Assembly: GCF_000735345.1 (NCBI RefSeq)
Contig: NZ_JMPJ01000053.1
Coordinates: 248,001 to 312,000 of the forward strand
Direction of reading: 5' to 3'
Length of the DNA: 64,000 bases
DNA from: Ewingella americana ATCC 33852
GTDB lineage: Bacteria; Pseudomonadota; Gammaproteobacteria; Enterobacterales; Enterobacteriaceae
Shown: piece after piece, positions 12,645 through 29,051 of the stretch
Layout of the letters: each line of letters opens with the position of its first letter
How positions within the stretch are numbered: position 1 is the first letter of the stretch
Program-made: the position numbers and the translations under genes
Notes under the pieces: model-generated
Seen by the model: the letters and a program-made list of their open reading frames with translations, nothing else
The model's database searches: none
What the model was told of the DNA's origin: nothing

Positions 12645-12659
12645 GTTAAGGTTGCGCCG

Positions 12660-12853
12660 TCATTTGGGGAGTAGCCGGTTTTTGCATCAATTGTCTCGCA
12701 CAATGGATGTGAAAACGCTCGTATCAACATACTCGTTTTGAAATAAAACGTGGTGCGAGCAGCCGTGAGGTTGGCGAGACCATAGACGCGTAGCTCCGTC
12801 GTAAGGTTGGGGGTGGGTTACGTGTATATGGAAACACCCGGCCGAGGTAACAC
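12660..12853 (+). promoter_or_regulatory. yybP-ykoY manganese riboswitch in the mntP leader
   Basis: The leader of mntP shows the conserved family landmarks in order: TTTGGGGAGTAGCC near 12663, GGCGAGACC near 12773, and GGCCGAGG near 12840, close to the start codon. This is the Mn(II)-sensing yybP-ykoY class known upstream of E. coli mntP. The GAGG inside the last conserved block is also the ribosome binding site, 8 bases before the GTG, so metal binding can directly control translation. Confidence 0.88.
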
Positions 12854-15103: not shown

Positions 15104-15129
15104 TGCTGGCTAGCCTCAGATTTCAGATA

Positions 15130-15160
15130 CAAAAAAACCCGCACATGGCGGGTTTTTTTC
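15130..15160. terminator. Bidirectional terminator between the YfiH-like gene and cspC
   Basis: Seven A, ACCCGC, a short loop, GCGGGT and seven T form a strong symmetric terminator between convergent genes. Confidence 0.93.
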
Positions 15161-15174
15161 ACAGCTGACGCTGC

Positions 15175-15384
15175 TTAGATTGCATTCACGTTAACAGCAG
15201 ACGGGCCTTTCTGGCCGTCTTGGATTTCGAACTCAACGTTCTGGCCTTCAGCCAGAGTTTTGAAGCCGTTACCCTGAATGGCAGAGAAGTGTACGAATAC
15301 GTCTTTGCTGCCGTCAGCAGGAGTGATGAAACCGAAGCCTTTAGACTCGTTGAACCACTTAACCTGACCTTTAATCTTTGCCAT
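15175..15384 (-). CDS. cspC: Cold-shock family RNA chaperone CspC
   Basis: A 69-residue OB-fold nucleic-acid-binding protein, nearly identical to E. coli CspC from memory. The RNP motifs KGFGFITP and VFVHFSAI are intact. CspC is made constitutively and stabilises certain mRNAs, including stress genes. AAGGAA lies about 10 bases before the ATG at 15384. It lies 42 bases after yobF on the same strand and should be co-transcribed with it, as in E. coli. Confidence 0.97.
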
Positions 15385-15426
15385 CTTGAGTATTTCCTTT
15401 GGATTGTTTAAAGCCGCCTATTGGCG

Positions 15427-15543
15427 TTACATAGACAAACTAGAGTCGTTACTGCTTGAGGCACTAAGATATAAATCGGCAGAGAAGCAGTGTTCAACGA
15501 TAACGTTTTTACTCAGGTCTTCTTTACTGAAAATGCCACACAT
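15427..15543 (-). CDS. yobF: YobF small protein (38 residues)
   Basis: A very short gene directly upstream of cspC. Translation from ATG 15543 starts [18 protein letters not shown] and ends SSLSM, aligning with the E. coli YobF start [14 protein letters not shown] and the shared FSA segment, with a shorter C-terminus (38 against 47 residues). E. coli YobF is a small stress-responsive protein of unknown role. The ribosome binding site is poor (GAGG about 13 bases away). Identity rests on sequence plus the conserved yobF-cspC order. Confidence 0.85.
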
Positions 15544-15576
15544 ATACAGAACCGTACCTCGTTTTACCCATATGCG

Positions 15577-26296: not shown

Positions 26297-26470
26297 GAAA
26301 ATAGCCCCGGGGAAAAAAGTGGCTCATGTTTACCATTGCCCGTTACGCTTCACAAGGAGCACGCTGGAAAAATCCTTAAAATCAGCAGATACGGGTAGGA
26401 AACAGACTTAATGCAGACATTTAAAAGCGCCCTCGCCCAGAGGGCCGTTATTGCCCGCTGGTGTGGAGTA

Positions 26471-26494
26471 AGAAGCCGCCCGAAGGCGGCTTCT
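26471..26494 (-). terminator. Terminator with UUCG loop after the small gene at 26540
   Basis: GAAGCCGCC-CGAA-GGCGGCTTC on the plus strand reads as GCCGCC-TTCG-GGCGGC on the minus strand, a stable UUCG tetraloop. It is followed by CTTACT, so the T-run is short. Confidence 0.6.
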
Positions 26495-26539
26495 ATTTAT
26501 ATTAAATGCTGTAAACGTCCCAGCCTAAATTTCAGCGTA

Positions 26540-26698
26540 TCAAATATGGATTGGCGGCAAACCAACAAGGCCTTGCACTGCTGAAAGCAAGGTACCTTGC
26601 TTAGTGCTTTCCTGTTGCAGTTTAACAGCTGTTTCTATTTCAACACCGAATGCTTCAGCTAATGCCGCCGCATCAAAACCACTAAAGATATTGTTCAT
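26540..26698 (-). CDS. 52-residue protein resembling a legumin (11S globulin) segment
   Basis: A small gene with GAGG 6-8 bases before ATG 26698. The protein starts MNNIFSGFDAAALAEAFGVE, continues with an ETA..LQ segment and ends GLVGLPPIHI. From memory, the pattern NN(I/V)FSGF...LA.A...V..ETA..LQ is the conserved helical stretch in plant 11S seed globulins such as almond prunin and legumin (cupin superfamily). The cupin barrels themselves are absent. There is no signal peptide. A hairpin terminator lies downstream. The function is unknown. Confidence 0.65.
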   Translation of the reverse strand: MNNIFSGFDAAALAEAFGVEIETAVKLQQESTKQGTLLSAVQGLVGLPPIHI

Positions 26699-26861
26699 TT
26701 TGAACCTCACAATTTGTTATGAACCAGATGATTTGCAAATGAATCTATAACTTGCAGGTACAAGTTAACCCTTTGAACAATGACTGGGTATTGATCCCCG
26801 CCGTGCTGGCTATGGCACAACGGAATTGAGGGGGCCGTGTTGTCGAGAAAACGCTAATCCA

Positions 26862-26885
26862 TAAAAAAGCCGCCCTGTGGCGGCT
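26862..26885 (-). terminator. Terminator after the 26917-27120 gene
   Basis: AGCCGCC and GGCGGCT form a 7-bp stem. On the minus strand it is followed by TTTTTT, about 30 bases after the stop. Confidence 0.85.
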
Positions 26886-26916
26886 AATTAAAAGACGAGT
26901 ATTTGTAGTGCTTTTA

Positions 26917-27120
26917 TTATTCGTCTTTTTTAATGACAACCTGTTGTGGCTTCATCTGCTGAATTGCACGGCAGATGCAATAAGGTATGACAGCCCACGC
27001 GAGACCCATGGCGGCTCCAGCTGCTTGCTGAGGTGCACTGTTTGCGCCGAATACGGCAATAATGCCTTGGAAGAAGCCAATTACGCCGCAAATTGCAGCA
27101 ATTACCCATAAAGCTTTCAT
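26917..27120 (-). CDS. Small two-helix membrane protein
   Basis: A 67-residue protein with two hydrophobic helices (about 3-24 and 33-52) joined by a short loop containing NSAPQQAAGAAMGLAWAVIP. A charged tail carrying the KKDE end follows. Proteins with this APQQAAGAAM pattern are common in Gammaproteobacteria, but their role is unknown. ATG 27120 has AGGAG about 11-13 bases upstream, a little far. It ends at a clear terminator and is monocistronic. Confidence 0.7.
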   Translation of the reverse strand: MKALWVIAAICGVIGFFQGIIAVFGANSAPQQAAGAAMGLAWAVIPYCICRAIQQMKPQQVVIKKDE

Positions 27121-27269
27121 TTAACAATAAACTCCTGTTTATAAAGAATATGAATTTTAATCATAGGAATATTCTTAACAAGGTGTTTTTATACATTTAT
27201 AGGCGGGCCCACGATAGTATTACTGAATAGCCTTTGATAACGCATGGCTGATTAAAATAGGGACAGAGA

Positions 27270-27590
27270 ATGAAAAAAATGACTTTTATGGCATTGCTAT
27301 TAACCAGCTTCTCAAGCATGGCGGCCTATGAAAATTGCACAATAGCTAACGGCCGAGTCACTTTCTGCGCAGGATGGGCTCAGTCAGACTCACAGCCCGT
27401 GAAACAATCTGATGGCGCTTATAGTGACTGTACTATCAGTAATGGACAGGTCACCAGTTGTCGAAGCTGGTCTCAAGGTTCGGCAGTTGTTCAACAAAGT
27501 GATGGCAGCTACTACAGCTGCACCATCGCCAACGGCCAAGTCACCAGCTGCGGGTCTTGGTATCAGGGCAGCGCCATTGTGGACCGGTAG
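27270..27590 (+). CDS. Secreted protein with three Cys-containing repeats
   Basis: A 106-residue protein with a signal peptide (MKKMTFMALLLTSFSSMAAY, likely cut after Ala18 or Ala19). The mature part is three tandem units of about 30 residues. Each has CTI(A/S)NG(Q/R)VT..C at 23-33, 54-64 and 84-94, followed by a W and, in units two and three, QGSA(V/I)V. Units one and two end QSDG. Each unit holds two Cys nine residues apart, so three disulfides are plausible in the periplasm or outside. No family recognised. AGGGA lies about 6 bases before ATG 27270. Confidence 0.75.
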   Translation: MKKMTFMALLLTSFSSMAAYENCTIANGRVTFCAGWAQSDSQPVKQSDGAYSDCTISNGQVTSCRSWSQGSAVVQQSDGSYYSCTIANGQVTSCGSWYQGSAIVDR

Positions 27591-27614
27591 AAAACTGCGG
27601 ATTTGGAACATTAA

Positions 27615-27638: not shown

Positions 27639-27656
27639 CTCATTCATTCCAGCAAA

Positions 27657-28910
27657 TTACATGTTGGAAATGATGTCGTCGCCGAACTCGCTGCATTTAC
27701 GCAGTTTCGCGCCGTCCATCAGACGTTCGAAATCGTAAGTCACAGTTTTGTTCGCGATCGCGCCTTCCATACCTTTAACGATCAGGTCTGCGGCTTCGAA
27801 CCACTCCATGTGACGCAGCATCATTTCTGCGGACAGGATGATGGAACCTGGGTTCACTTTATCCTGACCTGCGTACTTAGGTGCAGTACCGTGGGTTGCT
27901 TCGAACAGTGCGCAATCGGAACCGATGTTTGCACCCGGTGCGATACCGATACCGCCAACCTGCGCCGCCAGGGCGTCGGAGATGTAGTCACCGTTAAGGT
28001 TCATACAGGCGATAACGTCGTATTCAGCCGGACGCAGCAGGATCTGTTGCAGGAATGCATCAGCGATTACGTCTTTAATGATGATGTCTTTGCCGTTGTT
28101 TGGGTTCTTGATTTTCACCCATGGGCCGCCGTCGATCAGCTCACCGCCGAATTCTTCACGTGCCAACTGGTAACCCCAGTCTTTGAACGCGCCTTCGGTG
28201 AACTTCATGATGTTGCCTTTGTGAACCAAAGTCAGGGAATCACGATCGTTGGTGATGGTGTATTCGATAGCCGCGCGAACCAGACGCTTGGTGCCTTCTT
28301 CAGAACAAGGCTTGATGCCGATACCGCAATCTTGTGGGAAGCGAATTTTCTTCACGCCCATTTCGTCTTGCAGGAACTTGATCACTTTGTCTGCTTCAGC
28401 AGAACCGGCTTTCCACTCGATACCCGCGTAGATGTCTTCGGAGTTCTCGCGGAAGATAACCATGTCGGTGTCTTCTGGGCGTTTAACCGGGCTTGGCGTG
28501 CCGGTGTAGTAACGAACCGGACGCAGGCAGATGTACAGGTCAAGCTGCTGGCGCAGGGCAACGTTCAGGGAGCGAATACCGCCGCCGACTGGGGTAGTCA
28601 GTGGGCCTTTGATAGCCACGCGGTAATCACGAATCAGGTCCAGAGTCTCTTCTGGCAGCCATACGTCTTTACCGTACAGGTCAACCGATTTCTCACCGGT
28701 GTAGATTTCCATCCAGGAAATTTTGCGTTCGCCGTTGTAGGCTTTTTTAACCGCCGCATCCACAACCTTGATCATGGCTGGGGTCACGTCAACGCCAATA
28801 CCGTCGCCTTCAATGAACGGGATAATAGGATTATTAGGAACGTTCAGTTTACCCTGGGCGTCAACTGTGATCTTCTTACCTTCAGCCGGAACAACTACTT
28901 TGCTTTCCAT
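27657..28910 (-). CDS. icd: NADP-dependent isocitrate dehydrogenase
   Basis: Icd oxidises isocitrate to 2-oxoglutarate in the TCA cycle. From ATG 28910 it has 417 residues (E. coli 416), with AGGAGAGG just upstream. The phosphorylatable serine lies in [20 protein letters not shown], the substrate region in [12 protein letters not shown], and the NADP-binding [11 protein letters not shown] near residue 340. The E. coli enzyme is switched off by AceK phosphorylation at that serine. It is divergent from rluE, as in E. coli. A start at 28931 would add seven unsupported residues. Confidence 0.98.
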
Positions 28911-29051
28911 TAACCTCTCCTTCGAGCGCATTTTTGTTAAAAATTTGTAAGATGCGGGTCGATATTACTTCAATAATCGCCCCGCGCCAATCCGAAACGG
29001 TTTTCACGTATAATGCGCCAATTATCTTTTATCTCAATGTCTGTGAGAACA

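Follow-up and report, generated by a model that had tools for sequence, protein, structure and literature searches.

Genetic context of the P0001 gene

The window, i.e., the whole 64,000-nucleotide stretch of Ewingella americana DNA that was analyzed, carries on its minus strand a 52-codon gene, P0001, at positions 26540–26698 (ATG at 26698–26696, stop codon at 26542–26540), whose translation, MNNIFSGFDAAALAEAFGVEIETAVKLQQESTKQGTLLSAVQGLVGLPPIHI, together with its PDB and profile matches described below, marks it as a free-standing helical arm of the 11S seed globulin type. The initial annotation had reported the frame without its strand and had credited it with a good ribosome-binding site and a downstream UUCG hairpin, and all three elements were found. 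A GAGG motif (26705–26708, minus strand) lies 7–10 nt upstream of the start codon, and a 10-bp hairpin with a C-UUCG-G loop in the minus-strand reading (26471–26494) begins 45 nt past the stop. The T-rich tail of this hairpin is present on the plus strand only; thus, on the strand of P0001 itself, the hairpin has no clear U-run. In a second copy of the gene, located on the metagenomic contig L011 (see below), the gene is followed by a hairpin with a T-run. Both copies share the start-site context GTGAGG.TCAA.ATG. No sigma-70-like site adjoining the P0001 gene was detected by a simple scan. Further upstream, a dyad, TTAACTTGTACCTGCAAGTTA (26748–26768, minus strand), is partly common to L011 and is a candidate operator or promoter element; its pattern, TTAACTT..A..TGCAAGTTA, is kept about 50–70 nt 5' of the gene in both copies and is matched once in the host genome when up to one mismatch is allowed.

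We found that the gene resides in an insertion of about 1.2 kb (26417–27611) between a GGDEF gene and icd, the isocitrate dehydrogenase gene (27657–28931, minus strand). The G+C content of the insertion is 0.451, as compared to 0.546 for the window. In the genome of the nearest relative, G169, bases 26417–27611 are missing and the flanks join at the same place, with an identity of 98.8% on the right, icd side and 90% on the left. The insertion is also missing from G024, where the alignment stops at 26335 and resumes at 27655, the interval being taken up by about 130 bases peculiar to G024, while G377 has a different sequence at this site (the stretch compared ends short of icd). A DNA query of the locus gave no match in the remaining two genomes of the genus. 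The frame is missing from all five other genomes of the genus, which reflects a lineage-specific insertion that also carries phage-family genes. The initial annotation regarded absence from close relatives as a point against the proposal; the absence itself is real, yet a conserved homolog exists in L011. Between the insertion and the end of icd there are 45 bases, and the 3' end of this gene is a known integration site of E. coli phages and of the e14 element.

Two other genes of the insertion belong to phage protein families. The first (26917–27120, minus strand) encodes a small hydrophobic protein of 67 aa matching phrog_12304 (PHROG E-value 5.6e-38); viral contigs contain 50 relatives of it, and further matches come from phages SfI and Edno5 (4 records). 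In phage SfI this protein is unannotated, and in most of the five loci viewed out of the 50, its relatives have terminase-like neighbors, as judged by eye. The second (27270–27590, plus strand) encodes a 106-aa cysteine-containing repeat protein matching phrog_13161 (E-value 6.7e-14); it looks secreted, has three repeats of CTI.NG.VT.C, and showed no relatives in viral contigs in a pattern scan. The P0001 locus is therefore phage-type DNA absent from related genomes; neither this context nor the second copy figured in the initial annotation. Elsewhere in the window, Rfam matches were obtained for the Mn2+ riboswitch yybP-ykoY (12653–12845, plus strand) and for the cspA thermoregulator (15129–15560, minus strand).

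Similarity to the helical arm of 11S globulins

The likeness to plant 11S globulins, proposed in the initial annotation, is borne out by a phmmer search of P0001 against 177,635 distinct PDB sequences (matches listed to E ≤ 10). The 11S globulins account for 10 of the 19 matches, including the top nine, the best of which has an E-value of 8e-6, and these nine are the only ones below 0.1. The tenth-ranked match (E-value 0.26) is a non-globulin, and XRE regulators appear at 0.3–1.5, both with P0001 as a query and with a profile of the two bacterial copies. The PDB matches of P0001 fall on the helical arm between the two barrels, e.g., on residues 216–253 of 8uai_A. As a control, two orphan neighbor genes were searched against the same database, and one of them gave no match and the other a best E-value of 0.5. 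Taken by itself, the E-value of 8e-6 obtained with P0001 does not settle the matter, since a genome scan of many windows and frames yields matches at about 1e-5; the case for the resemblance is carried instead by the second copy, by the profile scores, and by the separate signal in the NNIFSGFD stretch and in the helices.

The second protein, P0002, matches the same globulins more strongly (3qac at 4.7e-8 and 8uai_A at 1.3e-7), but also a non-globulin coiled-coil protein, 8qai, at 0.0028. With the two-copy profile the E-values reach 5.8e-10 for 8uai_A and 1.6e-9 for 3qac; the coiled-coil (sc-CC) proteins 8qah (6e-5) and 8qai (8e-5) are matched as well, none of their stretches passing the limit individually.

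In turn, a profile built from plant segments only (A3; five segments, those nearest P0001) recovers P0001 at 49.4 bits (E-value 2.5e-12, with 295 genomes of the order searched), whereas the best match in the 294 other genomes of the order is 19.6 bits. The profile match is therefore both significant and specific. P0002 scores 55.4–56.1 bits. The two bacterial proteins were shuffled to give 100,000 sequences, and among the 81,224 that received a score the best reached 17.3 bits against 50.6 and 56.1 for the real sequences, a contrast that, like the profile result as such, is mildly circular because the five plant segments were chosen as the nearest to P0001. Set against this circularity are the scores of the 11S globulins themselves with the same profile: glycinin G4 (50.2 bits) and 1od5 (49.1 bits) score at the level of P0001, and 2e9q (45.6 bits), 3ksc (LegA; 40.1 bits), and 3c3v (arachin; 32.1 bits) all score below it. 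Alignment of the bacterial with the plant profile (hhalign) gave a probability of 99.0% over 46 ungapped columns. Identity between the bacterial and plant segments is 39–50%, which overlaps the plant–plant range of 35–80% (six plant segments, 40–44 aligned residues).

The match starts at the NN-FSGF turn and extends across two helices' worth of sequence. The sequence typical of the arm in the N-terminal half of the globulins, N[IV]FSGF...LA.AF.V....A..LQ, is present in P0001, and the signal comes from two separate sub-segments, namely NNIFSGFD (24.5 bits) and residues 10–28 (about 31 bits), while the later residues fit less well (7–11 bits). Altogether, the resemblance of P0001 to the 11S arm is far beyond chance and is at the level of homology. 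Of the two plant proteins named in the initial annotation, pea legumin, which we take 3ksc (LegA) to be, is matched only weakly: it is absent from the PDB list of P0001 and is found at 0.079 with P0002 and at 0.014 with the two-copy profile. In almond Pru du 6.02, the octapeptide NNIFSGFD is found unchanged, as tabulated in PMC4889876.

That the bacterial gene holds this segment only, as had also been proposed, agrees with its length of 52 aa and with the lack of a Cupin_1 match in Pfam (E ≤ 10). P0001 begins with MNNIFSGFD, has no signal peptide as judged by eye, and contains no NG dipeptide. Its single Pfam match is a sub-threshold one to Lipoprotein_6 (E-value 0.074), and PHROG gave none at E ≤ 10. 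For P0002, Pfam gave nothing at E ≤ 10.

A second bacterial copy under purifying selection

The second copy was the one relative found by a scan of viral contigs, and later scans led back to this contig. The P0002 gene (L011:5001–5159) likewise encodes 52 aa and is located on a 52.8-kb metagenomic contig. The two proteins are 78% identical over residues 1–50 and 75% over all 52. The genes differ in 32 codons, 13 of which are nonsynonymous and 19 synonymous (18 sense codons and the stop). We determined dN and dS values of 0.25 and 2.0 (NG86) or 0.26 and 1.4 (LWL85), giving a dN/dS ratio of about 0.13–0.18, with dS near saturation. As the codon differences lean toward synonymous ones, the gene is under purifying selection. 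Change is concentrated in the last 14 residues (dN 0.72, as compared to 0.15 in the first 38); the arm part is conserved and the C-terminus is variable. A variable C-terminus led us to consider a RiPP precursor, and this idea was rejected, no modification gene being recognizable by eye in the 1.2-kb insertion.

These data also bear on whether P0001 is a gene at all. The frame is missing from the five other genomes of the genus, as a chance non-coding frame or an assembly contaminant might be. Yet, a chance frame is at odds with a second copy that is equally long, differs mostly by synonymous changes, and shares the start-site context, and contamination with the embedding of the gene in a 370-kb bacterial contig; we rejected both and consider either to be highly improbable.

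In L011, the P0002 gene is preceded by the end of a P22-like prophage and by an integrase-like stretch, so that phage-type sequence lies beside both copies, though the settings differ. The integrase-like stretch (L011:4308–4691) is about 67–75% identical to site-specific integrases of the plasmid collection, and its frame is apparently broken. It adjoins a sequence resembling a tRNA 3' end, where a search gave no tRNA gene, and is perhaps a degraded second element next to the P22-like prophage.

Distribution in bacteria and possible relation to regulators

P0001 is rare in all the collections searched. It was matched in one of 392 genomes of the family, which is its own. Outside of it, profile matches reached about 15–23 bits only and were found in 4 of 398 genomes of the phylum, 19 of 295 of the order (E ≤ 0.1), 3 of 369 of the class, 3 of 296 of relatives, and 1 of 226 of the relatives of G146, these sets for phylum, order, class, and relatives being overlapping. 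The four matches of the phylum set and the three of the class set were read letter by letter; by eye, two of these seven look like GntR-type regulators, and the others like antisense frames or proteins without a relation to P0001. The match in G827 covers 16–18 residues of a 210-aa frame, at up to 21.8 bits. Scans of genome_contigs (84,980 species) with exact short peptide patterns, which may pass over the genome of the window or those near it, revealed no relative of the gene; neither did a DNA search of E. coli genomes nor a search of phage records. Among plasmids there was no match to P0001 at E ≤ 1, and P0002 obtained 11 weak ones (E-value 2 or worse), five of which are annotated as hutC or helix-turn-helix (HTH) proteins (E-values 6–7). 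None of the collections searched yielded a third bacterial copy.

The weak matches to regulators point to the main rival explanation, convergence, in which P0001 would be a native phage or bacterial HTH mini-protein whose resemblance to the 11S arm is accidental, packed helices with LAxAFxV...TA..LQ being present in both. Regulators recognized by eye as GntR-type score about 19–23 bits on these helices (one genome of the same order has LAERFNVSRMTARRALQELTEQGLL), the pattern LAE.F.VSR.TA..L being common to the helices and to GntR/HutC winged HTH proteins; the hutC/HTH matches of P0002 on plasmids and the XRE matches in PDB point the same way. There are just two known bacterial copies, and the number of windows scanned leaves room for a look-elsewhere effect. 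However, NNIFSGFD, which stands ahead of the helix pattern, bears 24.5 bits of its own and is not shared with GntR/HutC regulators, for whose effector domain P0001 is far too short. Neither bacterial copy has an HTH match in Pfam at E ≤ 10, the 294 other genomes of the order remain at or below 19.6 bits against 49.4, and nothing comparable came from the two orphan phage-family neighbors when searched against PDB. We regard convergence as rather unlikely, though it is the alternative that we take most seriously.

The pattern in the helices, together with the dyad upstream, keeps alive a related reading, compatible with either origin, in which P0001 would be a tiny DNA-binding autoregulator whose putative HTH binds the dyad upstream of its own gene. 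The position of the dyad in both copies and its single occurrence in the host genome are consistent with an operator, the GVSRETA segment of P0002 is HTH-like, and one of the two weak PHROG matches of P0002 (E-values 0.26 and 0.28) is to a DNA-binding family, the former. Yet, the conserved upstream stretch could be an ordinary promoter, residues 20–21 differ between the copies (EI versus SR) just where the presumed recognition helix would begin, and NCBIfam, like Pfam, gave no HTH match to P0001. An autoregulatory role thus appears improbable to us, somewhat more so than convergence.

Possible origin and direction of transfer

The initial annotation left open whether the segment came from plants, passed to them, or arose by convergence. 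To our knowledge, 11S globulins are considered to be proteins of plants, and gene transfer from plants to bacteria is rarely documented. The arm is present in each half of the seed globulins, and we compared the bacterial segment with both. The two-copy profile scores 36.9 (8uai_A) and 27.5 bits (8uai_C) on the arm of the N-terminal half, but 1.8 and 6.2 bits, respectively, around residue 450 of these chains, a stretch which by its position we take to be the arm of the C-terminal half. The contrast is repeated with P0002 as a query (28.3 and 24.5 bits versus 2.0 and 4.9 bits). A bacterial segment that resembles one of the two duplicates more closely would be younger than the internal duplication of the globulin, and a segment post-dating the duplication favors the direction from plant to bacterium. 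Two copies with 40–46 aligned residues are too few for a reliable tree, and so the direction is argued from the N-arm/C-arm contrast and from the rarity in bacteria. These suggest, from 40-odd residues, a transfer out of plants that is favored, not proved; a faster evolution of the C-half arm may be another cause of the contrast.

The reverse, i.e., a bacterial mini-protein as the source of the seed globulin arm, draws on the fact that a segment of about 44 residues cannot show direction. It is nevertheless hard to reconcile with an arm in both halves of the globulin when the bacterial segment resembles mainly that of the N-half, and with the near-absence of the gene from bacteria in the pattern scans of genome_contigs, and we consider it very unlikely. 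An origin from the bacterium's own bicupin was rejected, as the arm of this 389-aa oxalate-decarboxylase-like protein (L083) differs by eye.

We therefore favor, with a probability of roughly 0.6, the reading that P0001 is a selected accessory gene of prophage- or island-type DNA of Enterobacterales, with its product most likely a copy of the 11S arm captured from an angiosperm and kept as an independent protein. The capture from an angiosperm 11S gene would have occurred long ago, directly or through an intermediate, and the captured arm would since have been retained as a small protein of its own. For the fuller scenario, in which an angiosperm 11S fragment entered enterobacteria, was reduced to the oligomerization arm, spread on prophage-derived DNA, and is functional and selected there, we put the chances at about even.

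Putative function and relation to known proteins

In 11S trimers the arm packs against the neighboring subunit. The initial annotation had suggested a free-standing oligomerization motif. The bacterial protein, presumably expressed by itself under the control of its own upstream region, would fold into two or three helices, and a free arm without barrels probably either associates with itself or attaches to a partner supplied by host or phage. We infer that P0001 may be a small helical prophage cargo protein, a putative binding module acting in the manner of phage morons, either self-associating or partner-docking. Similar to morons, the gene has phage-family neighbors in the window and a P22-like prophage with an integrase-like stretch in L011; in contrast, no known moron with the sequence of P0001 came up.

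As for the 11S globulins (legumins), e.g., 8uai, 3qac, and the prunin 3ehk, P0001 shares with them the N-half arm from the NN-FSGF turn onward. Yet, the 11S chains among the listed matches are 424–563 aa long, and 11S globulins have two cupin barrels, with a secretory signal peptide and an Asn-Gly processing site; the 52-aa P0001, having no cupin barrels, does not belong to the 11S family. Among the open-license literature matches listed, no title reports a bacterial 11S-arm protein. A self-standing bacterial arm under selection, if confirmed, would offer a minimal system for an assembly element of seed globulins. It would also mean that phage-type DNA can carry plant-derived sequence and that a transfer from plant to bacterium yielded a free-standing protein-assembly module, with a bacterial protein holding the same eight residues as a tree-nut allergen epitope.

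This epitope is part of HS#2, an IgE epitope hotspot of tree-nut and legume 11S globulins, whose tabulated Pru du 6.02 sequence is identical to the bacterial NNIFSGFD (PMC4889876); the bacterial frame differs from the HS#2 allergens by having no signal peptide recognizable by eye. The octapeptide corresponds to residues 2–9 of P0001 (positions 26672–26695 of the window), and it lies within the almond IgE epitope hotspot and has similar counterparts in other nuts (PMC4889876).
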